A stretch of 64,000 bases of DNA from Ruania rhizosphaerae (GTDB lineage: Bacteria; Actinomycetota; Actinomycetes; Actinomycetales; Beutenbergiaceae). Shown here in pieces: positions 36,041 through 54,821 of this stretch. The notes beneath the pieces were generated by a model. The model had not been told where the DNA came from and ran no database searches. It worked only from the letters and a program-made list of their open reading frames with translations. Made by a program: the position numbers and the translations under genes. The DNA lies in contig NZ_VSMB01000010.1 in NCBI RefSeq assembly GCF_009805705.1, positions 62,001-126,000 on the forward strand, given 5' to 3'. Every line of letters begins with the position of its first letter. Position 1 is the first letter of the stretch.

Positions 36041-37324
36041 ATGGCGCGAGTAGGTGAAGGCGCCGATCTGCTCAAGTGCTCCTTCTGCGGGAAGAGCCAG
36101 AAGCAGGTCGTCAAGCTCATCGCCGGTCCCGGCGTGTACATCTGCGACGAGTGCATCGACCTGTGCAACGAGATCATCGAGGAGGAGCTCGCCGAGGCGA
36201 ACGAGCTGGGTCTGGTCGACCTGCCGAAGCCGCGCGAGATCTTCGATTTTCTCGAGGAGTACATCATCGGCCAGGAGGATGCGAAGAAGTCCCTGGCCGT
36301 TGCGGTCTACAACCACTACAAGCGGGTGCAGTCCGGCGCCACGGGCGCTTCGACCACGGGCGAGAAGGACGACGTCGAGCTGGCGAAATCCAACATTCTC
36401 CTCATCGGCCCCACGGGGTGCGGGAAGACCTACCTGGCGCAGACGCTTGCCCGGATGCTCAACGTCCCGTTCGCGATCGCCGATGCCACTGCCCTCACCG
36501 AGGCCGGCTATGTCGGTGAGGATGTCGAGAACATCCTCCTCAAACTCATCCAGGCGGCGGACTTCGATGTCAAGAAGGCCGAGACCGGGATCATCTACAT
36601 CGACGAGATCGACAAGATCGCACGCAAGAGCGAGAACCCGTCGATCACCCGGGATGTCTCCGGCGAGGGCGTCCAGCAGGCGCTGCTGAAGATCCTCGAA
36701 GGCACACAGGCCTCCGTTCCCCCGCAGGGGGGCCGCAAGCACCCGCACCAGGAGTTCATCACGATCGATACGTCGAATGTGTTGTTCATCGTGGCCGGCG
36801 CCTTCGCCGGGCTGGACGAGATCATCACCAGCCGCTCCGGCCGTCGAGGCATCGGCTTCGGCGCTCCGTTGCGTGAGGCCGACCAGGCTGACGTCATCGA
36901 AGACGTCATGCCAGAAGACCTGCTGAAGTTCGGCCTCATCCCGGAGTTCATCGGGCGACTTCCCGTGCTGACCACGGTCACGCCACTGGACGCCCCCGCC
37001 CTGACTCGTATCCTCACCGAGCCGAAGAACGCCCTCATCAGGCAGTACGAGCGCATGTTCGAGATCGACGGCGTGGAGTTGGAATTCACCGACGACGCGA
37101 TCGCGGCGGTCGCCGACCAGGCGATCATGCGTGGAACCGGCGCTCGCGGGCTCCGCGCGATCATGGAGGAAGTGCTCCAGCCGGTCATGTTCGACGTACC
37201 GAGCCGTGAGGACATCGCCCGGGTTGTCATCACCCGCGAGGTGGTGCTGGAGAACGTCAACCCCACTCTCGTTCCTCGTGAGGCGCCTCGGTCGAAGCGA
37301 ACCCCGCGGGAGAAGAGCGCCTGA
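36041..37324 (+). CDS. clpX: ATP-dependent Clp protease ATPase subunit ClpX
   Basis: A 427-residue AAA+ unfoldase feeding substrates to ClpP1P2. The zinc-binding domain has Cys13, Cys16, Cys35 and Cys38. Walker A is GPTGCGKT (123-130), Walker [11 protein letters not shown], and the ClpP-docking loop is RRGIGFGAP. Sensor 2 is [11 protein letters not shown]. The basic tail RSKRTPREK is a normal variant. The ATG follows GTGAGGAGAG. It lies after clpP2, in the conserved tig-clpP-clpX order. Confidence 0.98.
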
Positions 37325-37412
37325 GGTTCAACGCTTGCCGCTGAGGTCGCGAGCGCCGCCGCGAGGAGGCACGCTAGAGGGGACCAGCATCCGATCAGGA
37401 AGCGAGGTCTCC

Positions 37413-38642
37413 ATGGTGGACCTTCCTCAGTTGTCTCTCCCGGATCATGCGCCGGTCTTGAGCGTGGTCATTGATGCCACCCGCTCTGATGACGGTCGCA
37501 ACGCGGTGGTGCTCGACCGGTGGGCCGACCTGCAACGTTCGGTCACGCTCGATGGTGCCGACGATGTGCCGCGGGCCGACGCCGACGCGGTCGCCGCCGC
37601 ACTGGAGCGCCCCACCTGGGTCCACGGTCCGCACGGCCGGGTACTGGTGGCCGCGGGTGGTGAGGTGCTGCTCGACCGGGTCATCCCGGATCCCCCGACC
37701 GAGGGCAGGGCCGTCCTCTCCGACCACGCCCACGCTCTTGCGCTCGCATACGCGGCCGATGCCGCCGCGCGGTACCTCGTGGTCGAGTCAGATCGTGCGG
37801 GGGCGCACCTGTCACTGCACGAGGCGTCAGCCGTCATGGGCAGTCAACTGTTGCAGGACAGAGAGATCGACGGTGACCACGATGTGCTCACCAAGGTCCG
37901 GCCCAGCCGCGATCTTCCCCGGGACCGGGTCAACAATCGTGCCGAGGATTCGTGGGAGCGCAACGCTGAGACCGTCGCCGCGGAGGTCGACCGGGTGATG
38001 GCGCGGGAGAAACCCGATCTGGTGCTGCTCACCGGCGACGTGCGCTCCACCGCCTACGTCGAGGAGGCCCTCGGCGCGCATGCCCGCGAGGTGCTGGTGG
38101 ACGTCCCCGGAGGCGCCCGCACCGAAGGCGTCAACTCGCGCGCCTTCGCCGCCGCGGTGGACGAGGCCGTCACCGGCTTTCGAATGCGCCGGAGGCAGTC
38201 GGTGCTCGACCACGTCGAGCAGGAGATCGGCCGCGAGGGCGCAGCGGTGAGCGGCCTGGAGGACGTGGTCGCCGTACTGCGACGCGGTCAGGTGACTGAG
38301 CTGGTGCTGGACGTCGGTGCCGTCAGTTCCCCGCGTCAGCGGCTCGCTGCGCACAGGCTCTGGATCGGTGACGCCCCTCTCCAGCTGGGTACCTCGGCGG
38401 AGGAACTCGCCGACCTCGGCGTGGGGGAGCCGAGGCAGGTCCGCGCCGACCTCGCCCTCGGCCGGGCGGCTACGGACCAATCGGCAGGTATCACGATCGC
38501 CGAGCAGCTCGATGTCGCCGACGGCGTGGCTGCCTTGCTGCGCTGGACCGATGCCGCGACTCCCGCTGAGACCGCGTTCACCCAGAGCGGAGATGCTCAG
38601 CGCGTGCATGCCTCAGCCCAGGCGGAGGAGCCGAGCCCTTAA
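37413..38642 (+). CDS. Rv2629/Balon-type ribosome hibernation factor (aeRF1-like)
   Basis: A 409-residue protein of the bacterial archaeo-eukaryotic release-factor family. It shows the middle-domain stretch [16 protein letters not shown], the [17 protein letters not shown] helix, the [13 protein letters not shown] strand, and the C-terminal L7Ae-like part [17 protein letters not shown] ending in a Gln-poor helix. Proteins of this type (Rv2629, Balon) bind the ribosomal A site of idle ribosomes; I infer that role here by family. The ATG at 37413 follows GAGG at five bases. It is 88 bp after clpX and 11 bp before a chorismate mutase gene. Confidence 0.75.
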
Positions 38643-38653
38643 GATGGGGGACC

Positions 38654-38992
38654 ATGAGCGATGCACCCCGCAGCCAGGGACCAGTGGTCGGAGTAGCGGT
38701 ACCGGAGCGGCTGCGCGGACTGCGCGGGAGCATCGACAACATCGACGCCGCGCTCGTGCACCTGCTGGCGGAGCGGTTCAAATGCACGCAGGCCGTCGGG
38801 CGGCTGAAGGCCGAGCACGGCCTCCCGCCGTCGGACCCTGCACGCGAAGAGGAGCAGATCGCCCGCCTGCGGTCTCTCGCCGAGGCTGCCGGCCTGAACC
38901 CGGTCTTCGCGGAGAAGTTCCTGGCGTTCATCGTCGCCGAGGTGATCCGCCACCACGCCGATATCGCGGCTGAGCGCCCGCCCGCCTCCTGA
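38654..38992 (+). CDS. Chorismate mutase (AroQ class)
   Basis: A 112-residue all-helical enzyme turning chorismate into prephenate for Phe/Tyr synthesis. The first long helix, RLRGLRGSIDNIDAALVHLLAERF, has the conserved ID-x-ID and ER positions, and the later AREEEQIARL and FLAFIVAEVIRHH helices complete the AroQ fold. No signal peptide. It starts 11 bp after the hibernation-factor gene and is probably co-transcribed with it. Confidence 0.9.
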   Translation: MSDAPRSQGPVVGVAVPERLRGLRGSIDNIDAALVHLLAERFKCTQAVGRLKAEHGLPPSDPAREEEQIARLRSLAEAAGLNPVFAEKFLAFIVAEVIRHHADIAAERPPAS

Positions 38993-39034
38993 CCCGCATC
39001 TCACACCGGCGCCGCGGTGCGGTGTGCGATCTTC

Positions 39035-39072
39035 CTTACGGCAGCGAAACTGCTCGCGACGTGCGCTGAAAC
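39035..39072 (+). promoter_or_regulatory. Tandem GlnR box upstream of narK
   Basis: Four 5-base elements with exact 6-base spacers: CTTAC (39035), GAAAC (39046), CGACG (39057), GAAAC (39068). This is the a1-n6-b1-n6-a2-n6-b2 layout of actinobacterial GlnR sites, with both b elements perfect. It ends about 10 bp before a TAGCGT possible -10 (39083-39088), so a bound activator would sit at the -35 region. Confidence 0.75.
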
Positions 39073-39124
39073 ACGGCCTCCCTAGCGTCGTACCCACTCG
39101 CCGGTACGACACCAGGAGCCAGAT

Positions 39125-40489
39125 ATGTCTGCACCGTCATCGCCGCAGGTTGCTGAACCCACGGCCACCGAATCCGATCGAGAACTCGCCCCTCGCCGGC
39201 GGACCGGCCGGTGGATCGAGCACTGGGATCCGGAGGACACCACGTTCTGGGCTGGCGGTGGCCGCCTGGTCGCACGCCGGAACCTCTGGATCTCGATCTT
39301 TGCCGAGTTCCTCGGCTTCGGCGTCTGGGCGCTGTGGTCGATTGTGGTCCCGCAGCTGCCGGCAGCAGGCTTCGCCCTCACAGTCGATCAGCAGTTCTGG
39401 CTGATCGCAGTGCCGAGCCTGGTCGGCGCCACCTTGCGGATCCCGTACACCTTCGCCGTGCCGCTGTTCGGTGGGCGGAACTGGACGATCATCTCAGCAC
39501 TGTTGTTGCTGCTGCCGACCACCGCGCTCGTCTTCGCGGTGCAGCGCCCGGACCTCTCCTTCGGGGTTCTGCTGGCCGTGGCGGCCCTCGCCGGCGTCGG
39601 AGGCGGGAACTTCGCTTCCTCGATGGCCAACATCTCCTTCTTCTACCCGGAGCGAGAGAAGGGTCGCGCGCTCGGGATGAACGCCGCCGGCGGCAACGTG
39701 GGCACCGCGGCCGTGCAACTGGCCGTCCCGTTGGTCATCGTCGCCGGGGCTGGGCTCGCCCTGGAACGTGCCGGGCTGATGTTCATCCCGCTCGCGATCC
39801 TGGCGGCCTTCCTCGCGTGGCGATTCATGGACAACCTCGGCACCGCCAAGGCCGATCCGCGCTCGTTCGCCGTGGCCACCCGCAAGAAGCACACCTGGAT
39901 CATCTCCTTCCTCTACATCGGCACCTTCGGGTCCTTCATCGGCTACTCCGGCGCCTTCCCGACCCTCATGCGCAACGAGTTCAGCGAGGTCACGCTCTCG
40001 ATCGCGTTCCTCGGCGCCCTCGTCGGGTCGGTCTCACGCCCCCTGGGTGGCATCATCGCCGACAAGGTCGGCGGAGCCTGGGTGACGATCGTCTCCTACG
40101 CCGTGATGGCAGCAGGAGCCGTCGGTGTGATCGCGGCGCTCGGCCAGCACCACTTCGTGCTGTTCTTCGCCTCCTTCATGATCCTGTTCATCGCCAGCGG
40201 TGTCGGCAACGGCTCCCTGTACCGGATGATCCCCGCGGTGTTCCGCAACGGTGCGCACACTCCCGAGGAGGCGTCGGCGGCGCGCCGAACCGCCGCCGGG
40301 TGCATCGGTATCGCCGGGGCGACCGGCGCCTTCGGCGGATTCCTGATCCCACGAGGGTTCGCCGTCTCCACCGACCTGGCGGGCTCATTGGTTCCCGCGC
40401 TGTGGTTGTTCATCGGGTGCTACGTCGTGATGGCTGCCGTGACGTGGGTGGTGTACGCACGCCGGAGCAGCGGTATGGCCGGCATCTGA
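39125..40489 (+). CDS. narK: Nitrate/nitrite transporter NarK (MFS)
   Basis: A 454-residue major-facilitator protein with 12 predicted membrane segments. The NarK/NRT nitrate signatures are seen in two halves: GVGGGNFASSMANISFFYPEREKGRALGMNAAGGN and the matching GVGNGSLYRMIPAVFR. A conserved substrate-binding Arg is in RIPYTF. It imports nitrate, possibly exporting nitrite. The ATG follows AGGAG at seven bases, and its stop overlaps the nasA start by one base (TGATG). Confidence 0.94.
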   Translation: MSAPSSPQVAEPTATESDRELAPRRRTGRWIEHWDPEDTTFWAGGGRLVARRNLWISIFAEFLGFGVWALWSIVVPQLPAAGFALTVDQQFWLIAVPSLVGATLRIPYTFAVPLFGGRNWTIISALLLLLPTTALVFAVQRPDLSFGVLLAVAALAGVGGGNFASSMANISFFYPEREKGRALGMNAAGGNVGTAAVQLAVPLVIVAGAGLALERAGLMFIPLAILAAFLAWRFMDNLGTAKADPRSFAVATRKKHTWIISFLYIGTFGSFIGYSGAFPTLMRNEFSEVTLSIAFLGALVGSVSRPLGGIIADKVGGAWVTIVSYAVMAAGAVGVIAALGQHHFVLFFASFMILFIASGVGNGSLYRMIPAVFRNGAHTPEEASAARRTAAGCIGIAGATGAFGGFLIPRGFAVSTDLAGSLVPALWLFIGCYVVMAAVTWVVYARRSSGMAGI

Positions 40490-42681
40490 TGCCCACCACG
40501 ACGGCGCAGGTCACCCCGGTCACCGACGTCACCTCGGCTGCCACGCACTGCCCGTACTGCGCCCTGCAGTGCGCGATGGTGCTGGATCCGGCCGATCCGG
40601 GAACAACCGGCCCCGTCTCGGTTCAGCCGCGCCAGTTCCCGACGAATGCCGGGGGGCTGTGCCAGAAGGGCTGGACGAGCGGTGAACTCCTGCACACTCC
40701 GGACCGCATCACCGCCCCGTTGCTCCGCGGCCCCGACGGGCAGCTTCACCCGGCGAGCTGGGACGAGGCGCTGGACGCGATCGTCGTCCGCCTGGCTCAG
40801 CTGCAGGCCGAGAGCGGCCCGGAGACAGTGGCCGTCTTCGGGGGAGGGGGCCTGACGAACGAGAAGGCGTACACCCTCGGCAAGTTCGCCCGTACCGTGC
40901 TGCGCACCCCGAATATCGACTACAACGGCCGGTTCTGCATGTCGAGTGCGGCGGCGGCCACGAACCGCGCCCTCGGCCTGGACCGGGGCCTGCCGTTCCC
41001 ACTCACCGACCTCGCTGGGGCGGACGCCGTGATGCTGCTCGGCTCTAACCTGGCCGAGACGATGCCACCGTCGGTGCAGCATCTCGCCCCCGTTCGCTCC
41101 CGTGGCGGGCTGGTCGTGATGGACCCCCGCCGCAGTCGCACGGCAGCCCTCACCGAGAACGGACAGGGCGCGCACCTGCAACCGGTGCCGGGGACCGATC
41201 TGGCGGTGCTGCTGGCCCTGACGCACATCGTCATCGCCGAGAACCTCGTCGACTCGGTGTACCTGGACGAGCGCACCTCTGGTTTCGAGGCAGTTCGCCG
41301 GTCGGTGGCGGCCTGGTGGCCCGAGCGTGCCGAGACTGTCTGCGGGGTGCCCGCCGCTCAGCTGCGCCGGGTGGCTCGCCTGCTCGCGGCCGCGTCCCCG
41401 GCCGGTGGTGGCCGGGGCGCCTATCTGCTCACCGGGCGCGGGGTCGAGCAGTCCAGTCAGGGCACCGCCACCGTCACCGCGACGATCAACCTCGCCCTCG
41501 TGCTCGGCCTGCCGGGACGAATCGGCAGCGGGTACGGCGCCATCACCGGGCAGGGCAACGGGCAGGGAGGACGTGAGCACGGCCAGAAGGCCGACCAGCT
41601 GCCCGGCTATCGGTCCATCACCGACCCCGCAGCGCGTGCGCACGTTGCCGCCGTGTGGGGCGTGGCGCCCGAGACGATCCCGGGGCCAGGGCGTCCCGCG
41701 GTCGAACTGCTCTCCTCGCTCGGCCGCCCGGCCACCGCAGACCGGCCGGCTGGTCCGCGTGCCCTGTTCGTCCACGGTGCGAATGTGCTCGTCAGCGCTC
41801 CCAATGCCGGCCGCGTCGCCGACGCCCTCGACCGGCTGGATCTGCTCGTCGTGTGTGACTTCGTCCCCTCCGAGACCGCCTCCCGCGCCGATGTGGTGCT
41901 TCCGGTCACGCAGTGGGCCGAGGAGGAGGGCACTATGACCTCCCTTGAAGGGAGAGTGATCCGCCGCCGCCAGGCGCTCCCGGCGCCCGGCCAGGCACGC
42001 TCAGAGCTGTGGATTCTCGCTGAGCTCGGCCGCCGTCTGGGCGCCCAGGTCGAGTTCGCCGTCGAGCCCTCGGACGTCTTCGATGAGCTGGCCCGTGCCT
42101 CGGCGGGCGGAGTGGCCGACTACGCCGGGCTGAGCCACGCCCGCCTGGACGACGATGAGGCTGCCAGCGGTCCGGGCTTCTACTGGCCGGTCCCCGCCGC
42201 CGACCACTTGGGCACGCCGCGTCCGTTCCAGGACCGGTTCGCCACCCCGGACGGCCGGGCGCGAATGGTGGCCGTCAACCACCACGCCCCCGCCGATGAC
42301 GTCCGGCCGGGTGCGCCGATCTACCTCGTCACCGGCCGGGTGCTGCAGCACTACCAGTCCGGTGCGCAGACCCGGCGAGTGGCCGACCTGAACCGGGTCG
42401 TCCCCGAACCCGTGGTCGAGCTGCACCCGCTGCTGGCCAGTCGGCTCGGTATCGAGGACGGTGAAGAAGTGCGGTTGCGCTCCGCCCGGGGCGAGGCGGT
42501 CGCCCGGGCCCGGTGGTCCGACGAGATCCGCCCCGACACCGTCTTCATGCCGTTCCACTTCGCCGGGACCGGCAGCGTCAATCTGCTCACCAGTGACGCC
42601 ACGGACCCGATCTCCGGGATGCCGGAGTTCAAGGTGTGCGCTGTCGACCTGAGCCCAGCCACCGATGGAGGCCAGCCATGA
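40489..42681 (+). CDS. nasA: Assimilatory nitrate reductase catalytic subunit NasA
   Basis: A 730-residue cytoplasmic molybdopterin enzyme reducing nitrate to nitrite. The N-terminal [4Fe-4S] site is Cys21, Cys24, Cys28 and Cys58 (CPYCALQC...GLCQKG). Molybdenum is probably held by Cys150 in GRFCMSS, as in NasA/NapA enzymes. GSGYGAITGQGNGQGGREHGQK is the typical cofactor loop. There is no Tat signal, so it is assimilatory. It starts one base inside narK and shares ATGA with the next gene, an electron-transfer partner. Confidence 0.95.
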   Translation: MPTTTAQVTPVTDVTSAATHCPYCALQCAMVLDPADPGTTGPVSVQPRQFPTNAGGLCQKGWTSGELLHTPDRITAPLLRGPDGQLHPASWDEALDAIVVRLAQLQAESGPETVAVFGGGGLTNEKAYTLGKFARTVLRTPNIDYNGRFCMSSAAAATNRALGLDRGLPFPLTDLAGADAVMLLGSNLAETMPPSVQHLAPVRSRGGLVVMDPRRSRTAALTENGQGAHLQPVPGTDLAVLLALTHIVIAENLVDSVYLDERTSGFEAVRRSVAAWWPERAETVCGVPAAQLRRVARLLAAASPAGGGRGAYLLTGRGVEQSSQGTATVTATINLALVLGLPGRIGSGYGAITGQGNGQGGREHGQKADQLPGYRSITDPAARAHVAAVWGVAPETIPGPGRPAVELLSSLGRPATADRPAGPRALFVHGANVLVSAPNAGRVADALDRLDLLVVCDFVPSETASRADVVLPVTQWAEEEGTMTSLEGRVIRRRQALPAPGQARSELWILAELGRRLGAQVEFAVEPSDVFDELARASAGGVADYAGLSHARLDDDEAASGPGFYWPVPAADHLGTPRPFQDRFATPDGRARMVAVNHHAPADDVRPGAPIYLVTGRVLQHYQSGAQTRRVADLNRVVPEPVVELHPLLASRLGIEDGEEVRLRSARGEAVARARWSDEIRPDTVFMPFHFAGTGSVNLLTSDATDPISGMPEFKVCAVDLSPATDGGQP

Positions 42682-44369
42682 CCACACCGACCAAGATCGT
42701 CGTCGTGGGCCACGGGATGGTCGGCGCCCGGTTCGTCGACGACGTGCTCGCCCGTGCCGAACCCGGCACGCTGGAGATCGAGGTGCTCGGCGGGGAGGAG
42801 TACGAGCCCTACAACCGGGTGCTGCTCAGTGACGTGGTGGCCGGGCGCACGGATCTGAACTCGCTCACGCTGCCGGTCACCGCGTCCGAGCACGTCACCG
42901 TCACGCGGGGCGCCGTCGCGACCGCCATCGACCGTGCCGGACAGTGTGTGCACACCCCGCTCGGGCGCCATCACTACGACCACCTCGTACTGGCGACCGG
43001 TGCGCGGGCCCGCATCCCCGCCGTCGAGGGCTTGGACTACGGCCTCCCAGCCGGGGTCCATGCCCTTCGCACCCTGGACGACGCCCGCGAGATCATCGCG
43101 GCCACGACCAACGCCCGCCACGCCACCGTCGTCGGGGCGGGAGTCCTGGGGCTGGAGGCGGCCTGTGGGTTGGTGCGGCGCGGACTGGACGTCACCGTGC
43201 TCCACACCGGCCACGGCCCGATGGATCGCCAGCTCGATCAAGGGGCCTCCGCCGTCGTGACGTCCGAGCTGGAACGTCTCGGTGCCCAGGTGCGCACCCA
43301 GGCCCGCACGACGGCGGTACGTACCCAGGGCGGACGGCTCACCGGGGTCGTCGCCACCGTGGGCGAGACGGAGCATATCCTCCCGACGGACCTGCTCGTC
43401 CTGGCATGCGGTACGCAGCCGGAGGCCAGGCTCGCCCAGGACGCGGGCTTGCCCGTCGGGCGGGGGATCCGTGTGGGAGCGGACCTGGCCAGCCCGGCGG
43501 ACCCCCGTGTCCACGCCATTGGCGACTGCGCCGAGCCCGCGGAGGGCGCTACGGGTCTGATCGCTCAGGGATGGGACCAGGCGCGTCGCTTGGCCGACCG
43601 GATTGCCGGTGTGGTGGCCGCCCGGGCTGATCGGGCCACCAGAGTTGATCGGGCTGCCCCGCTGTTGGGGTCACGGCGACCGAGCATGGCGCTCCGCCTG
43701 GCGCTCGCGGCAGGTACCCGGCCGATCGCCTCGCACGAGGTCGATGCCGACAGTTCCGGCAGTGCTGCCGATCTCGCCGATCCAGCCGCAGGTCTCGCCG
43801 GGACGGATGTGGTGCGGCTGAAGGCGGCCGGTCTGGACGTGGTCACCATGGGGCGCACGGCCACGGGCGGGCGGGTGCGGACCGTCGCGCTCTCCGATCC
43901 CTCGGCAGGCCGGCATCTGACGGCGACCGTGTCCGACGGCCTGATCGTCGCCGCCACCTGTGTCGGGGCGCCGGACGTGGGTGCCGACCTGGTGGCCGCC
44001 TACACGCGGCGCCTGCCCGTCCCCAGCGATCCGGCGCACCTGCTGCTTCGTCCACTCACGCAGACGCCGGCTCCCGCAGCCGACCCGTCCCGGATGCCGG
44101 CCGGTACCACGGTGTGCACCTGCAACGGCGTCACCAAGGCCGATATCACCGACTCCTGGGAGCGTGGCGCTCGAAGCACCGAGGAGATTGCCCGCGCCAC
44201 CCGCGCCACCACCGGGTGCGGGGGCTGCACCGACGCCGTGTGCGGCCTGGCGCAGTGGCTCTCACAGACCGACCACCCCGCGGCCTCTCATGAGGGAGAC
44301 GGTGGCGGTGAGGAAACCGTGACGGAGGCGCAACGCAGGCAGCACACGTGCGAAATCGCCGCCACCTAA
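42678..44369 (+). CDS. nasB: Nitrate reductase electron-transfer flavoprotein with BFD-like [2Fe-2S] domain
   Basis: A 563-residue FAD/NAD(P)H oxidoreductase. The N terminus has the FAD fold VVVGHGMVGARF and EEYEPYNRVLLSD as in NirB; a second nucleotide fold is VVGAGVLGLEAA. The C-terminal BFD-like domain has Cys480 and Cys482 (VCTCNGVTKADI) and the pair in TGCGGCTDAVC. It should pass electrons from NAD(P)H to NasA. It resembles the front half of NirB, encoded next. Overlaps nasA by four bases; a 48-bp gap to nirB follows. Confidence 0.88.
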   Translation: MTTPTKIVVVGHGMVGARFVDDVLARAEPGTLEIEVLGGEEYEPYNRVLLSDVVAGRTDLNSLTLPVTASEHVTVTRGAVATAIDRAGQCVHTPLGRHHYDHLVLATGARARIPAVEGLDYGLPAGVHALRTLDDAREIIAATTNARHATVVGAGVLGLEAACGLVRRGLDVTVLHTGHGPMDRQLDQGASAVVTSELERLGAQVRTQARTTAVRTQGGRLTGVVATVGETEHILPTDLLVLACGTQPEARLAQDAGLPVGRGIRVGADLASPADPRVHAIGDCAEPAEGATGLIAQGWDQARRLADRIAGVVAARADRATRVDRAAPLLGSRRPSMALRLALAAGTRPIASHEVDADSSGSAADLADPAAGLAGTDVVRLKAAGLDVVTMGRTATGGRVRTVALSDPSAGRHLTATVSDGLIVAATCVGAPDVGADLVAAYTRRLPVPSDPAHLLLRPLTQTPAPAADPSRMPAGTTVCTCNGVTKADITDSWERGARSTEEIARATRATTGCGGCTDAVCGLAQWLSQTDHPAASHEGDGGGEETVTEAQRRQHTCEIAAT

Positions 44370-44417
44370 CGTCTCTGACCAGAACGAGAAGTCCCCTCTC
44401 GCCGCAAGGAGCACACC

Positions 44418-47069
44418 ATGACCTCAGCCGACCAGCAGCGCCGGCACCTCGTCGTCATCGGCGGTGGGATGGCCGCTCAACGACTCGTCGAGGCACTCGT
44501 GGCCCGCGACAGCGACACTGACGGACGGTGGCAGGTCTCGGTCTTCGCCGAGGAGCCCCTTAAGCCCTACGACCGGGTGGCTCTGACCTCCTACTTCTCC
44601 GCGCGTGACGCCGACGAGCTGACCCTCGGTGATCCGGGACTGTGGGACCAGCCGCATGTGCGCCTGTACCGCGACCGCAAGATCGAGAGCATCGACCGCG
44701 AGGCCCAGCAGGTCACTGACCGGCTGGGGGAGACGTGGAACTACGACGAGCTGGTGCTGGCCACCGGCTCCAGTGCAGCGATGCCGCCGATCCCTGGCAA
44801 CGACCTGCCCGGTGTGTTCGTCTACCGCACGATCGACGACGTCGCCGCGCTGCGCGGGTGGGTCGAGGCCAAGCGGGAGGAGGGGAAAGGGGCCCGCTTC
44901 GATCGACCGGTGCGGGGCGCCGTCATCGGTGGTGGTCTGCTGGGACTGGAGGCTGCCGGGGCGCTGAAGGCGCTCGATGCCCAGGCCACCGTGATCCAGT
45001 TCGGCACCCACCTGATGGACGCTCAGATCGACCTCGGCGGAGGTCAGGCGCTCAAGCGCCTCATCAATGACAAGTTCATCGCCGTCCGCACCGACACCGT
45101 GACCCAGGAGATGCGGCCCTCCCGGCGCACCGGCCACGTGGGCCGGCTCGACTTCGGTGATGGCGGCCGCCTGGACGTGGACGTGGTGGTGGTCGCGACC
45201 GGTGTGCGTCCCCGGGATGAGCTCGCCCGGGATGCCGGTCTGGCGATCGGGGAGCGCGGCGGTGCGGTGGTCGATCTGAGCTGCCACACCGAGGACCCGC
45301 ACATCTGGGCCATCGGTGAGGTCGCCTGTATCGAGGGCCGCTGTATCGGGCTGGTCGCTCCCGGCTACGCGATGGCCGAGGTGGTCGCCGATCGGCTCTT
45401 GGGCGGCCAGGCCACCTTCCCGGGAGCCGACACTGCGACGAAACTCAAGTTGCAGGGCGTGGACGTCGCGAGTTTCGGTGACGCTTTCGCCCGCACCGAG
45501 GACTCGATGGAGATCGTCTACGCCGACCCGGTGGCGGGGATCTACAAGAAACTCGTGATGTCGGACGACGGCAAGACTCTGCTCGGTGGTGTGTTCGTCG
45601 GCGACGTGGCTGCCTATGCGAGCTTGCGCCCGCTGCAGGGGTCCGAGCTGCCGGGTGACCCGTCCTCCTACATCACGCCCACAGGCTCCGGTGACGGACT
45701 GGCTGGGCTGGAACTGCCCGACGACGCCGGCGTCTGCTCGTGCAACAACGTCTCGGCCGGCACCATCCGGTCGGCGGTGACCGAGCAGGGATGCACCGAT
45801 CTGGCCGGCGTGAAGGCGTGCACGAGGGCGGGTACCAGCTGTGGGTCGTGCCTGCCGCTGGTCAAGAAGATCACCACCACCGAGCTCGAGAAAGTTGGGG
45901 TTGAGGTCTCCAACGCGCTGTGCGAGCACTTCGAGCTCTCCCGCGCCCAGCTCTTCGACGCCGTCCGTGTGGCCGAGGTGCACACGTTCACCGAGATCAT
46001 CGACCGCTTCGGGTACGTGCCTGAGGGCGCCGCCGATGCCGGACGTGGGTGCGACATCTGCAAGCCGGTCATCGCCTCGATCCTGGCCTCGCTCGGCAAC
46101 GGGCACATTCTCGACGGTGAGCAGGAGACCCTGCAGGACACCAATGACCATGTGATGGCCAACATGCAGAAGGACGGTACCTACTCGGTGGTGCCGCGGG
46201 TCCCGGGCGGGGAGATCACTCCGGACGGGTTGCTGGTGATCGGGCAGGTGGCCAAGGACTTCGGCCTGTACACGAAGATCACCGGCGGGCAGCGCATCGA
46301 CATGTTCGGAGCACGGATCGAACAGCTCCCGCAGATCTGGCGCCGGCTGGTCGAGCATGGGTTCGAGTCCGGCCATGCCTACGGCAAGTCACTGCGCACG
46401 GTGAAGTCGTGCGTCGGGTCCACATGGTGCCGGTATGGCGTGCAGGACTCGGTGGCGATGGCCGTCGAGTTGGAACTGCGCTACCGGGGTCTACGTTCAC
46501 CGCACAAGCTCAAACTCGGCGTCTCCGGTTGTGCCCGGGAGTGCGCCGAGGCACGCGGTAAGGATGTCGGCGTCATCGCGACCGACAAGGGCTGGAACGT
46601 CTACGTCGGGGGCAATGGAGGATTCACGCCGCGCCACGCGAAGCTGCTCGCCGAGGACCTCACCTCGGAGGAGCTACTGCGCACGATCGACCGATTCCTC
46701 ATGTACTACATCCGCACTGCGGACCGCTTGCAGCGCACCGCCGCCTGGATCGAGGACGTCGAGGGCGGTCTGGAGGGGGTACGTGAGGTGATCATGGACG
46801 ACAGCCTCGGGATCGCCGCCGACCTCGACGAGGCGATGAGCCGGCACGTGGGTGCCTACCGGGACGAGTGGCGCGCCGTGCTGGAGGACCCGGAGAAGCT
46901 GAGCCGGTTCTCCTCATTCGTGAACGCCCCCACGACACCCGACCCCGACCTGGCCTACGCCTCCGAGCGTGGGCAGATCCGGCCGGCCACGCCGCAGGAG
47001 CGGGACGCAGACGAGGACCTGATCCGGCCGGTGCTGATCGCCGGGACCACGCTGGAGGTACGCGCATGA
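44418..47069 (+). CDS. nirB: Nitrite reductase [NAD(P)H] large subunit NirB
   Basis: An 883-residue enzyme reducing nitrite to ammonium. In order: FAD/NAD oxidoreductase domains (VVIGGGMAAQRLVEA; GAVIGGGLLGLEAAGA), a BFD-like [2Fe-2S] domain (Cys440, Cys442 and TSCGSC), a ferredoxin-like half-domain, and the siroheme/[4Fe-4S] domain with Cys665, Cys671, Cys705 and Cys709 (CVGSTWC ... GCARECAEA). The ATG follows CAAGGAG. Its stop overlaps nirD by four bases. Confidence 0.97.
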   Translation: MTSADQQRRHLVVIGGGMAAQRLVEALVARDSDTDGRWQVSVFAEEPLKPYDRVALTSYFSARDADELTLGDPGLWDQPHVRLYRDRKIESIDREAQQVTDRLGETWNYDELVLATGSSAAMPPIPGNDLPGVFVYRTIDDVAALRGWVEAKREEGKGARFDRPVRGAVIGGGLLGLEAAGALKALDAQATVIQFGTHLMDAQIDLGGGQALKRLINDKFIAVRTDTVTQEMRPSRRTGHVGRLDFGDGGRLDVDVVVVATGVRPRDELARDAGLAIGERGGAVVDLSCHTEDPHIWAIGEVACIEGRCIGLVAPGYAMAEVVADRLLGGQATFPGADTATKLKLQGVDVASFGDAFARTEDSMEIVYADPVAGIYKKLVMSDDGKTLLGGVFVGDVAAYASLRPLQGSELPGDPSSYITPTGSGDGLAGLELPDDAGVCSCNNVSAGTIRSAVTEQGCTDLAGVKACTRAGTSCGSCLPLVKKITTTELEKVGVEVSNALCEHFELSRAQLFDAVRVAEVHTFTEIIDRFGYVPEGAADAGRGCDICKPVIASILASLGNGHILDGEQETLQDTNDHVMANMQKDGTYSVVPRVPGGEITPDGLLVIGQVAKDFGLYTKITGGQRIDMFGARIEQLPQIWRRLVEHGFESGHAYGKSLRTVKSCVGSTWCRYGVQDSVAMAVELELRYRGLRSPHKLKLGVSGCARECAEARGKDVGVIATDKGWNVYVGGNGGFTPRHAKLLAEDLTSEELLRTIDRFLMYYIRTADRLQRTAAWIEDVEGGLEGVREVIMDDSLGIAADLDEAMSRHVGAYRDEWRAVLEDPEKLSRFSSFVNAPTTPDPDLAYASERGQIRPATPQERDADEDLIRPVLIAGTTLEVRA

Positions 47070-47494
47070 TGAATGCAGGAGCGACAACGCGGAGCGAGCA
47101 GACGTCCGGCCCGGCGCCGTCGACGTGGGTGGCGGTGTGCCAGCGTGCCGAGCTGGGCGTGGAACGCGGGATCGCTGCCCTCGTCGACGGACAGCAGATG
47201 GCTCTGTTCCGCCTCCGGGACGATTCGGTGCACGCGGTGCAACAGCGAGATCCCTTCAGTGGGGCGAATGTGATGTCCCGGGGCATCGTGGGCACTCGGC
47301 AGGGTGAGCCGACAGTCGCCGGCCCGATGTACAAGCAGGTGTTCTCGTTGCGAACCGGCGCATGCCTGGAGCGGGGGAGCTACGAACCGGTCGACGACAG
47401 TGCCGATCTGCGGACCTGGGACGTCCAGGTGCTGGACGGTGTCGTGCACGTCCGTGCACCTCACAACGGTTCGGTGGAGGATGTGAAGTCATGA
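47066..47494 (+). CDS. nirD: Nitrite reductase small subunit NirD
   Basis: A 142-residue Rieske-fold protein without the Cys/His iron-sulfur ligands, as usual for NirD. Recognisable stretches are GIAALVDGQQMALFRLRDDSVHAVQQRDPFSGANVMSRGIVG and MYKQVFSLRTGACLE. It stabilises NirB. ATG at 47066 overlaps the nirB stop (ATGA) and follows GGAGG; a second ATG directly after it is also possible. Its stop overlaps the following siroheme gene. Confidence 0.94.
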   Translation: MMNAGATTRSEQTSGPAPSTWVAVCQRAELGVERGIAALVDGQQMALFRLRDDSVHAVQQRDPFSGANVMSRGIVGTRQGEPTVAGPMYKQVFSLRTGACLERGSYEPVDDSADLRTWDVQVLDGVVHVRAPHNGSVEDVKS

Positions 47495-48714
47495 CGAGCT
47501 TGTTCGGCCTCGATCTGGCCGACCGCACCGTGCTGATCGCCGGTGGCGGTCCGGTCGCGGCTCGTCGCGCCCAGACGCTCGCGGACGAGGGGGCGTTGCT
47601 GCGAGTCGTCGCACCGTACGTGTGCGAGGACTTGTCGGACCTGCTGCGTCTGATGCCCGACCGTGCCGAGTGGCTCGAGCGAGATGTCCAGGCGTCCGAC
47701 CTGGACGGGGTGTGGCTCGCGCTCGCTGCGACCGATTCGAAGGTCGCCAATGCCGATGTGGCGGCATGGGCCGAGCAGCACCGGGTGTTCTGCGTCAACG
47801 CCGGGGCCGCGAACGAGGGCAGCGCCCGGACACCGGCGACGACGCGCTCGGGAGACCTGCTGGTGGGTGTGGTCACCGATGTCTCACGCACCCCGGTGGG
47901 CGTCGGCGCGGATCCGCGCCGGGTGGCGTCGGTCCGGGATCAGATCGGGGACCTGCTGCGGGCGGGCGTCGATCAGCGCCGGCAGCGTCCTGCCACGGGG
48001 CAGGTGACGCTCGTGGGAGGGGGACCGGGCGCCGTCGACCTGCTGACGATCCGGGGCCGGCAGGCCCTCGCGCAAGCGGACGTGGTGGTCACCGACCGGC
48101 TCGGCCCTGTGGACGTGCTCGCCGATCTCGCGCCCGGTGTCGAGGTCATCAACGTCGGAAAGACCCCCGGGCATCACCCGGTGCCACAGCACGAGATCAA
48201 CACCATCCTGGTGGAGCAAGCCCAGCGCGGGCGGCAGGTGGTCCGGCTCAAGGGCGGAGACCCGTTCGTCTTCGGGCGTGGGGGCGAAGAGGCCATCGCG
48301 TGCCGTGAGGCGGGCGTGCCGGTGCACGTGGTGCCGGGGATCAGCAGTGCACTGTCGGTGCCCGCGCTGGCGGGGATCCCGCTGACGCATCGGGGGACAT
48401 CGGCCTCCTTCCACGTGACGACCGGTCACGTGGGCCTCGACCGCGCTGCGGCAGTCGCTGTCGCCGAGGGGTCGACGCTGGTGGTGCTGATGGGTGTCTC
48501 GAAGCTGGCGACGATCGCGGCGCAGGCGGTGGAGGCGGGCGCGCGGGCGGACTGCCCGGTCGCAGTGGTCGAGCGTGGGTCCACGCCGCACGAGCGGATC
48601 ACTCGTAGCACTCTGGAGCGCGTGGCCGACGAGGCCGGGCGAGTGGGGGTACGGGCGCCGGCGATCATTGTGATCGGGGACGTGGCCGACGAGGACAGGC
48701 TCGGGCCTACATGA
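47491..48714 (+). CDS. cysG: Siroheme synthase, CysG-like fusion (dehydrogenase plus methyltransferase)
   Basis: A 407-residue protein with two parts. The N-terminal domain (1-150) is a precorrin-2 dehydrogenase with the NAD fold VLIAGGGPVAARRAQTL. The C-terminal domain (about 170-400) is uroporphyrinogen-III C-methyltransferase with VGGGPGAVDLLTIRG, DRLGPVDVL, VRLKGGDPFVFGRGGEE and GISSALSVPALAGIPLTHRG. It makes siroheme precursors for NirB. It overlaps both neighbours by four bases. The methyltransferase is complete; iron insertion may be done by the chelatase at 54 kb. Confidence 0.93.
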   Translation: MTSLFGLDLADRTVLIAGGGPVAARRAQTLADEGALLRVVAPYVCEDLSDLLRLMPDRAEWLERDVQASDLDGVWLALAATDSKVANADVAAWAEQHRVFCVNAGAANEGSARTPATTRSGDLLVGVVTDVSRTPVGVGADPRRVASVRDQIGDLLRAGVDQRRQRPATGQVTLVGGGPGAVDLLTIRGRQALAQADVVVTDRLGPVDVLADLAPGVEVINVGKTPGHHPVPQHEINTILVEQAQRGRQVVRLKGGDPFVFGRGGEEAIACREAGVPVHVVPGISSALSVPALAGIPLTHRGTSASFHVTTGHVGLDRAAAVAVAEGSTLVVLMGVSKLATIAAQAVEAGARADCPVAVVERGSTPHERITRSTLERVADEAGRVGVRAPAIIVIGDVADEDRLGPT

Positions 48715-49847
48715 GCGAGGGTGAGTCCGTCCGCCCCAACCTCCACCAGGTGATGGCCGGGTGTACAGTGCTGCTCACCGCCGACCGGCGCAAAGGCGAG
48801 CTGGCGGCGGCCCTGGAACGCCGTGGAGCGAATGTGCGGCACGCGCCGGCGCTGAGCATTACCTCGCATGTCGATGACGAGTTGCTGGTCGCGGACACGC
48901 GGCGGTTGATCGATGAACCACCGGATGTGGTGGTGGTGACCACCGGTATCGGCTTTCGCGGGTGGGTGGAGGCGGCGGATGCACATGGCATCGCCGAGCC
49001 TTTCCTGGCGGTGCTGGAGAAGTCGCGGATCGTCGCTCGCGGGCCGAAGGCGCGTGGTGCCATTCAGGCGGCGGGACTGACCGCGGACTGGGTGGCCGAG
49101 TCGGAGACGTCGGCAGAGATCGCGGATGTGCTGCTGGGGGAGGGCGTCGCCGGTTTACGGGTGGCTGTGCAGCACCACGGTGCCGGTGCCGACGGGCTCG
49201 ATGTGGTGTTCGCCGAGGCCGGGGCCGAGGTATGCAGCCTGGTCGTCTACCGTTGGGGACCGCCGCCAGACCCGGTCGCCTTGCGGGACTCGGTGCATGC
49301 GGCGGCCGACGGCGAGATCGATGCGGTGGTCTTCACCTCGGCTCCCGGGGCGGAGGCGTGGCTGAGCGCTGCCGAGGGCGAGGGGGTGGACGCCGGTGTG
49401 CTGGCACGCTTCAAGGACTGGTCGATGCTGCCGGCCGCGGTCGGGCCGGTGACGGCTAAGCCGTTGGAGCACCGCGGTGTCACGCCGCTGCAGCCGGAGC
49501 GGGGTCGCCTGGGTGCCCTGGTGCGTGCGTTGGTGGCGCACTACGAGCATGCGGAGACCGTGGCCCTGTGCACCCCCGTCGGCGCGTTGCAGATCCGCTC
49601 CCGGGTCGCGGTGCTGGACGGGCAGGTGCTGCCGCTCTCGCCGAGCGGTATTGCGGTGCTGCGGCTTCTCGCCGCGTCCGCGGGCGGAGTGGTCTCCCGT
49701 GCGGACGTGCTCGCTGCCCTTCCTGGCGAGTCGACAGATCCGCATGCGGCTGAGGTCGCGATCGCCCGGCTGCGGGAGGCGGCAGGAAAGGAACTCATCA
49801 AGACCGTGGTCAAGCGTGGCTACCGGCTGGAGCTGACGTCCGCCTGA
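48711..49847 (+). CDS. nnaR: NnaR-type regulator: uroporphyrinogen-III synthase domain fused to winged helix
   Basis: A 378-residue fusion. Residues 15-270 read as a HemD-like uroporphyrinogen-III synthase (TADRRKGELAAALERRGA, VVVTTGIGFRGWVEAA, VVFTSAPGAEAWL). Residues 275-378 are an OmpR/PhoB-type winged helix ending VVKRGYRLELTSA. The same fusion is known in Mycobacterium and Streptomyces as NnaR, which co-activates nitrate and nitrite assimilation genes with GlnR. Being last in the operon, overlapping cysG by four bases, fits autoregulation. Whether the HemD part is active or senses a tetrapyrrole cannot be told. Confidence 0.88.
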   Translation: MSEGESVRPNLHQVMAGCTVLLTADRRKGELAAALERRGANVRHAPALSITSHVDDELLVADTRRLIDEPPDVVVVTTGIGFRGWVEAADAHGIAEPFLAVLEKSRIVARGPKARGAIQAAGLTADWVAESETSAEIADVLLGEGVAGLRVAVQHHGAGADGLDVVFAEAGAEVCSLVVYRWGPPPDPVALRDSVHAAADGEIDAVVFTSAPGAEAWLSAAEGEGVDAGVLARFKDWSMLPAAVGPVTAKPLEHRGVTPLQPERGRLGALVRALVAHYEHAETVALCTPVGALQIRSRVAVLDGQVLPLSPSGIAVLRLLAASAGGVVSRADVLAALPGESTDPHAAEVAIARLREAAGKELIKTVVKRGYRLELTSA

Positions 49848-53981: not shown

Positions 53982-54104
53982 GCACGCCGCCACACGGCGA
54001 GACGGATGTAACACAGCCGTCACTGCCCCGCCCGGATGTGGAAACCTGAGGGTCCTATCGTCACGATCGTGACGACCACCGATGTGGCTCCACCTGAGGA
54101 CCCG

Positions 54105-54821
54105 ATGATCACCGACCAGCCGCCAGCGACCCCACCGGTGCTGCTCGCGTGCTCCCACGGGACGTCCTCTCCGGCCGGGCAGCGGGCGATCGAAGCGTTG
54201 GTGGAGGTCGTCGCCACCCGTGCGCCGGAGCTTGCCGTCTCCGCTGCATTCGTGGACGTGCAGGACCCTGACGTTCCCTCCACGCTCGACGCGCTCGGCG
54301 AGTCTCAGGTGCAGGTGGTGCCGCTGTTGCTCTCGGCCGGCTACCACGTGCACGTCGACCTTGCCGAGGCTGTGGAGGGCCGTGACCACGCTCGCGTCAC
54401 CGGTGCGCTGGGCCCCGATTCCCGGCTGGTGCGCCTCCTCGCGCGCCGCCTGCACGAGGCGGGGCTGCGCGAGGAGGATGCCGTGGTGCTCGCTGCTGCC
54501 GGATCGTCCAACACCAGCGCTGTGGCGGACTGCCGGCATGTGGGGGAGGAACTGGCCGCCACGCTGGGCCGCCGGGTCACCACGGCGTTTCTCTCCGCGG
54601 CACAGCCGCGCCTTCCCGACGTCGTAACCCAGGCCCGTAGCCGCCTCACCTCACCCAGTGCCCGGGTGGTGGTGGCCACCTACCTCCTCGCGCCGGGATT
54701 CTTCGCCGATCTCGCGGCCGCCTCGGGAGCCGACGTGGTCACCCCGCCGCTGCTCACCGACGACGAACCCCCTGCCGCCGAGCTGGTCGAGATCGTGCTG
54801 GACCGGTACCGGGGCCGCTGA
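54105..54821 (+). CDS. Sirohydrochlorin chelatase (CbiX/SirB family)
   Basis: A 238-residue two-half chelatase. His18 in ACSHGTSS and His81/His83 in SAGYHVHVDL are the metal-binding histidines; a second-half pattern (VVLAAAGSSNTSA, ATYLLAPGFFADL) matches the duplicated fold. It would insert iron (or cobalt) into sirohydrochlorin. Given the nitrite reductase and siroheme genes 7 kb upstream, iron for siroheme is likely. The ATG at 54105 follows GAGG at five bases; GTG at 54069 is possible. Confidence 0.88.
   Translation: MITDQPPATPPVLLACSHGTSSPAGQRAIEALVEVVATRAPELAVSAAFVDVQDPDVPSTLDALGESQVQVVPLLLSAGYHVHVDLAEAVEGRDHARVTGALGPDSRLVRLLARRLHEAGLREEDAVVLAAAGSSNTSAVADCRHVGEELAATLGRRVTTAFLSAAQPRLPDVVTQARSRLTSPSARVVVATYLLAPGFFADLAAASGADVVTPPLLTDDEPPAAELVEIVLDRYRGR

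Follow-up and report, generated by a model that had tools for sequence, protein, structure and literature searches.

Positions 39000–39088 of the 64-kb window (the whole stretch of DNA that was analysed) very probably form a composite promoter, at which GlnR and NnaR would jointly switch on nitrate use. The region carries a palindrome of the NnaR type, a GlnR-type box that follows after 6 nt and a -10 element, and it lies in front of an operon that encodes a nitrate/nitrite transporter, nitrate and nitrite reductases and NnaR itself (Table 1). The promoter is of a known kind, and its orderliness and conservation go beyond what a preliminary description of the same DNA could see.

Table 1. Promoter elements and genes of the nitrate region, in window coordinates.
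Feature	Position	Strand	Remarks
NnaR-type palindrome, CTCACA-N17-TGTGCG	39000–39028	+	half-sites 39000–39005 and 39023–39028
GlnR half-site a1, CTTAC	39035–39039	+	columns 7–11 downstream of the palindrome
GlnR half-site b1, GAAAC	39046–39050	+	AC in 70/74 distinct upstream sequences
a2 slot, CGACG	39057–39061	+	no proper half-site; AC in 9/74 distinct upstream sequences (register beside b2)
GlnR half-site b2, GAAAC	39068–39072	+	A 74/77 and A 76/77 at columns 42–43 after the palindrome
-10 element TAGCGT	39083–39088	+	10 nt past b2; predicted start at about 39095
Inverted repeat GTCGTACC-N8-GGTACGAC	39087–39110	.	spans the predicted start; arms 8+8
narK, nitrate/nitrite transporter	39125–40489	+	MFS_1; TIGR00886 292 bits (cut-off 311.7) and NF011608 334 bits (cut-off 836), both cut-offs unreached
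narB-like molybdopterin nitrate reductase gene	40489–42681	+	Molybdopterin, Molydop_binding and Molybdop_Fe4S4 in the enclosing ORF; predicted start
nasB (name used here), NirB-like flavoprotein ORF	42636–44369	+	TIGR02374 partial, below cut-off, best stretch residues 21–327; true start perhaps further in
NnaR-type palindrome of the nirB promoter, CTCTCA-N16-GGTGAG	44285–44312	+	left half degenerate; 6 nt upstream of the box
nirB GlnR box GTGAC-6-GCAAC-6-AGCAC-6-GAAAT	44319–44356	+	within the coding end of nasB
nirB -10 element TAACGT	44367–44372	+	10 nt past the box; opens with the stop codon of nasB
nirB, nitrite reductase large subunit	44418–47069	+	TIGR02374 1004 bits, above cut-off
nirD-like gene	47066–47494	+	ORF 46868–47494; predicted start; taken to be nirD-like from its position
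cysG-like siroheme synthase ORF	47362–48714	+	TIGR01469 above cut-off, NF007922 below
nnaR, HemD-like and winged-helix DNA-binding domains	48711–49847	+	NF005568 417 bits (cut-off 273); HEM4 and Trans_reg_C
sirB-like GlnR box GTAAC-6-GTCAC-6-GCCCG-6-GAAAC	54008–54045	+	
sirB-like promoter -10 element TATCGT	54056–54061	+	
CbiX/sirB-like sirohydrochlorin chelatase gene	54105–54821	+	PF01903 80.9 bits, above cut-off; predicted start

The GlnR-type box and its -10 element

The sequence CTTACggcagcGAAACtgctcgCGACGtgcgctGAAAC is read directly from the window at 39035–39072 on the + strand, with spacers of exactly 6 nt. It had been described as a textbook GlnR box with the full set of four elements. 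The letters and the exact spacings are present, but the label fails because the third element, in the a2 slot, has CG at its positions 4–5, where AC is expected, and because this slot is unconserved in relatives (9/74). The box fits the half-site pattern GTnAC-n6-GaAAc for an a-b pair, with b2 (GAAAC) in addition and with C instead of G as the first base of a1; the complete a-b-a-b arrangement is not found at narK, where the a2 slot reads CGACG. Of the 18 positions fixed in the published four-site consensus, the box agrees with 13. Four sites in the window score at least 13/18 (39035, 44319 and 54008 on the + strand, 29505 on the - strand), where 60 shuffles average 1.8. By itself the narK box is within chance and its letters are insufficient as proof.

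What makes the box convincing is the spacing of the -10 element and the conservation in relatives. When 9–17 nt were allowed, TANNNT was found exactly 10 nt past b2 in 88 of 109 narK loci, in a search that kept the last match per row and so favoured short spacers, and in a set to which 28 further loci had been added, some of them copies of loci in the first set and a few of them distant paralogues; the b2/-10 pattern as searched was absent from the other 21 of the 109. A GlnR-type box stands where an activator would sit, as the preliminary description had proposed. The reading of the narK box as a chance match in GC-rich DNA, for which its chance-level score against the published consensus speaks, is extremely unlikely, as its position, the spacing to the -10 element and the conservation oppose it. 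If transcription starts 7 nt past the -10 element, as assumed for these promoter coordinates, the a2 slot would occupy the predicted -35 position (-38 to -34) and b2 would lie at -27 to -23; no -35 element is conserved at the narK promoters. In PhoB-dependent promoters the direct repeats of the pho box stop some 10 bp short of the -10 element and replace the -35 element. The narK promoter is like these in that its repeats end about 10 bp before the -10 element and unlike them in regulator, signal and half-site sequence.

A core pattern of a1, b1, b2, 10 nt and TANNNT occurs at three places in the 64-kb window, i.e., before narK, nirB and the CbiX/sirB-like gene, and in 0 of 200 shuffles; as the pattern was composed after these sites had been seen, it describes more than it tests. 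Without the -10 element there are also three places in the window, and 4 of the 200 shuffles give one or two.

Conservation at narK in relatives

Loci with relatives of NarK (80, kept from at least 543 confirmed) were compared. By title they belong mostly to Cellulomonas, Cellulosimicrobium, Actinotalea and their kin, with Micromonospora, Salinispora, Kineococcus and others also represented. In an alignment anchored on the palindrome only (77 distinct sequences), a1, b1 and b2 stand at a fixed distance and the a2 slot is flat; the conserved bases are T (71/77) and C (70/77) in a1 and A (71/77) and C (75/77) in b1. The distance between b1 and b2 among the 78 anchored loci is 17 nt in 43, 18 nt in 32 and neither in three, the three palindrome-bearing loci where b2 is not at its fixed place. 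The -10 element is at its fixed place in 35 of the 43 loci with 17 nt and in all 32 with 18 nt. It keeps its place after b2 in both spacing classes, and b2 and the -10 element therefore shift together. When distinct sequences are counted for the 17-nt and 18-nt classes, respectively, AC is found at b1 in 38/42 and 32/32, at the a2 slot beside b2 in 8/42 and 1/32, and at a1 in 28/42 and 8/32 (36/74 in total), while [AC]C is found at a1 in 35/42 and 25/32 (60/74 in total). The presence of AC at b2 in 74/74 follows from classing the rows by the presence of b2.

The palindrome at 39000–39028, overlooked by the preliminary description, is most likely the NnaR site, judged from its sequence. It fits the published NnaR motif apart from its spacer of 17 and a right half in which C replaces a. 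The form CTCAC[AC]-N16-NGTGCG is found within 350 bp upstream of narK in 64 of 81 loci (the 80 and the window, which itself misses on account of its N17); 200 shuffle sets gave 0 matches 190 times and 1 match 10 times, and in each of three coding stretches the form was found in 0/81. With looser ends, spacers of 15–18 and four congeners added, the palindrome could be anchored in 78 of 85 loci, with a spacer of 16 in 70, 17 in four and 15 in four; from seven of the 85 it is missing even in this relaxed form. The spacer of 17 is shared by the window and two congeners (G004 and G001; loci L128 and L129), and two other congeners (G002 and G005) have 16. The one-base difference in the window may not matter. 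Genome-wide, CTCAC-GTGCG alone with spacers of 15–18 gives 56 matches versus 14 for a reversed control, most of them ending in GGTGCG. A search of the genome for the two-gap composite returned six places, among which narK alone was accepted; nirB escaped this search on account of its degenerate left NnaR half. The locus L123:3001-4344 of Halotalea alkalilenta, presumably a gammaproteobacterium, encodes a NarK that is 61% identical and has no palindrome upstream; gene transfer or a mislabelled contig are possible explanations.

The operon and two further predicted promoters

The preliminary description had nnaR closing the operon, and the domains found in the product of 48711–49847 bear this out. 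The gene order narK-narB-nasB-nirB-cysG-nnaR recurs in 13 of the operon stretches compared from 16 relatives. An ORF for a NirB-like flavoprotein with a partial NirB match (nasB) lies between narB and nirB, and it comes after narB in 16/16 relatives.

The same layout recurs in a second predicted promoter, in front of nirB. The gene is present in 13 of the 16 relatives (not in G014, G021 and G031), and a box with a -10 element was taken in 14/14 (the 13 and the window) by a search that could settle on the highest-scoring position within 260 bp; weaker boxes were seen in four, that of G049 being the weakest, followed by G019, G015 and G039. The NnaR pattern was found at nirB in 10/14, and CTCAC...GTG pairs can be made out by eye in the remaining four. 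In five of the 14, namely the window and its four congeners, the -10 element opens with the three bases of the nasB stop codon, whereas the other nine differ. With the stop codon shared in this way, the nirB promoter of these five is written into the tail of nasB. The promoter of the CbiX/sirB-like gene is present in the window and in 4/4 congeners. In G017 and G010 it scores low in the register of the window and fits by eye after a shift of one base, and it was not seen at two more distant matches (L193 and L199). By eye it has the right half of an NnaR site at most.

The regulators

Absence of a GlnR gene from the genome had been named in advance as grounds for rejecting the box. Such a gene is found at L001:1447-2190(-). 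The closest solved chains to its product are 8hih and 8hig; phmmer gives E 4e-84 to 8hih over residues 11–239, and E 8.7e-28 to 4o1h, which is named GlnR. The entry 8hih is listed as "Transcriptional regulatory protein" and is, we take it, the complex of GlnR with RNA polymerase. A search of NCBIfam at E 1e-30 or better gave no family above its cut-off for this protein. It is one of 14 winged-helix (PF00486) matches in the genome, which comprises 4.43 Mb in 43 contigs.

When the genome was scanned for GlnR-like boxes, allowing up to 3 mismatches, 17 places were found, compared with 4 in a reversed control, and such boxes also stand upstream of amtB and glnA. TACCGT lies 10 nt past the last half-site of the glnA box, and no TANNNT was found 10 nt downstream of the amtB box. 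Both boxes look GlnR-only, because the NnaR palindrome was not found within 300 bp of either. A close match before miaB (C42:91144, L032) was set aside as likely chance, having no fitting function and no TANNNT at 10 nt.

According to earlier reports, MtrA competes with GlnR, binds GlnR boxes and has a nearly identical motif (PMC10704036, PMC6277429), and an MtrA gene is present in the genome (L005; NF040689 386 bits, cut-off 300). It is conceivable from this that the narK box is mainly a site for MtrA, acting as a repressor, or that the two proteins share it competitively. Two observations fit nitrogen control, however. Boxes of the narK kind stand in front of genes for nitrate, nitrite, ammonium and glutamine, and the one at narK comes with an NnaR-type site in operons of which nnaR is a member (13/16). 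A box that serves chiefly, or competitively, for MtrA is thus unlikely, and activation by GlnR together with NnaR is the reading followed below.

Relation to known systems

The comparisons that follow draw on parts of the cited papers. In its sequence the narK box resembles the box of the Amycolatopsis mediterranei nas promoter, where, according to a review, a1, b1 and b2 suffice and a2 is dispensable (PMC10704036). In both cases a1-b1-b2 half-sites precede a nitrate assimilation operon, while the spacer between b1 and b2 is 16 bp in A. mediterranei and 17 here, and the A. mediterranei account, in the parts drawn on, mentions no upstream NnaR palindrome, whereas the window has one of the NnaR type (PMC10704036). 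Like GlnR targets of S. coelicolor the narK promoter has half-sites of the GTnAC and GAAAC kind at 11-bp spacing, and unlike the a-b-a-b boxes described there it is missing the second a-site (PMC10704036). By cryo-EM, four GlnR molecules were seen on a four-site promoter (PMC10704036). In M. smegmatis the GlnR motif was given as AC/T-n9-AC, with those letters essential (PMC3662644).

Cooperation between NnaR and GlnR has been reported in S. coelicolor and M. smegmatis (PMC10704036, PMC6277429). The NnaR motif of M. smegmatis, ctCAC[a/c]-N16-[t/g]GTGag, lies beside GlnR sites at similar spacing (PMC6277429), and for promoters of S. coelicolor and M. tuberculosis the motif was given as CTCAC[A/C][Cg]-13-16 bp-GTGAG (PMC11162112). 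An M. smegmatis site that is one base short was shifted by NnaR plus GlnR and not by NnaR alone, and a second promoter, in which the motif is present, was likewise shifted only by the two together (PMC6277429). Because the short site behaved in this way, the palindrome of the window may also lean on GlnR. The association between the two M. smegmatis proteins was weak, with none in a two-hybrid test, and a stable complex was not clearly seen (PMC6277429). The narK promoter is like the NnaR/GlnR promoters of M. smegmatis (narK3, nirB and others) in having an NnaR-type palindrome near a GlnR-type site at conserved spacing, and is unlike them in its spacer of 17 and in the further promoter copy inside a coding tail (PMC6277429). 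The narK3-nirBD-nnaR-sirB operon of M. abscessus, with a predicted NnaR site, likewise combines transporter, nitrite reductase, nnaR and sirB genes, whereas in the window the sirB-like gene stands apart, under a GlnR-type promoter of its own (PMC11162112). For Micrococcales or Cellulomonas no report of this promoter type was found in the open-licence literature, judged partly by title.

Proposed mechanism

We propose that when preferred nitrogen is exhausted GlnR and NnaR together would activate 39000–39088, with NnaR bound to the palindrome and GlnR bound 6 nt downstream to a1, b1 and b2. GlnR would replace the -35 element and, from its place 10 nt upstream of TAGCGT, recruit RNA polymerase. 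Activators of the OmpR/PhoB family recruit RNA polymerase in this manner. The narK promoter would drive narK-narB-nasB and probably read through into nirB-nirD-cysG-nnaR, and given this probable read-through NnaR would reinforce its own synthesis. The second promoter, of the same layout and within the end of nasB, would drive nirB, and the third, with a GlnR box and a -10 element and no full NnaR site, would drive the CbiX/sirB-like gene to supply siroheme for NirB.

It is tempting to speculate, though with some doubt, that the nitrate promoters consist of two rigid modules, one of the NnaR palindrome, 6 nt and GlnR a1-b1 and the other of b2, 10 nt and the -10 element, which are joined at the empty a2/-35 slot with one base of slack (17 or 18 nt from b1 to b2). 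GlnR might then make three contacts with the DNA and NnaR act as the fourth partner, which could amount to an AND gate, and the copy at nirB might be lodged in the coding tail of nasB, with the stop codon opening the -10 element, as a trait of the window's genus. The findings carry the promoter grammar of GlnR and NnaR beyond Streptomyces and mycobacteria, into Cellulomonas-like bacteria and related groups, and the fixed spacings should make the GlnR/NnaR regulon readable from genomes. Natural spacing variants are at hand in the palindrome (16 or 17) and between b1 and b2 (17 or 18).

The inverted repeat at the predicted start

The preliminary description had pointed to a repeat, CGTACC-8-GGTACG, between the box and narK as a possible NnaR site or operator. 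The repeat is present, and its arms are really 8+8, but it is most likely not the site of NnaR, since the motif published for that protein is found upstream of the box instead. Among 2000 shuffles of 39035–39124, 31 contain a perfect inverted repeat of 8 bp whose loop length is 3–12, and some perfect 8-bp repeat is found within the last 90 bp in 6 of 80 relatives. Eight genomes of the same genus were examined, which gave five operons, including the window, and only weak NarK matches in the other three. The repeat is kept in the window and in all four congeners with the operon, in two of them with one mismatch, and over these five operons one of the 16 arm columns is variable, compared with five of the 8 loop columns (Fisher p 0.007, from five related rows). 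At least 6 of 8 pairs are formed at the true register in 10 of 78 distinct rows, compared with 0–6 rows in 12 slid registers; the ten are the five genus rows, three rows from a sister genus group (L061, L072, L133 and copies), L055 and L112, and the five from outside the genus differ in arm sequence. There is thus a weak hint of a dyad that reaches beyond the genus.

These observations lend something to the reading of 39087–39110 as a working NnaR site or an operator. Against that reading, the repeat is unlike the published NnaR motif, its mean pairing over all 78 distinct rows is 0.40, where slid registers give 0.40–0.47, and a second copy in the genome was not found at up to 2 mismatches, with 34 forward matches versus 32 in the control at up to 3. 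A working site of either kind is decidedly unlikely. The repeat might instead form a hairpin in the 5' leader and control narK translation or early transcription, for the RNA folds at -13.1 kcal/mol with exactly the repeat arms, just upstream of the ribosome site, and the five rows from outside the genus pair with other arm sequences. The z-score of this fold is only -1.64, however, and 18 of 200 shuffles fold equally well, which led to the rejection of a leader hairpin as the main function; moreover, given the -10 element at 39083–39088, the left arm would come before the predicted start and stay outside the transcript. Control through such a hairpin is very unlikely. With the NnaR site placed in the upstream palindrome, the repeat is possibly an operator of the genus and its near kin, or has no role at all. 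On the other side of the promoter, just upstream of it, the stretch 37131–38992 holds a gene like that of a ribosome hibernation factor (baeRF_family2; NF052289 below cut-off) and a chorismate mutase gene.
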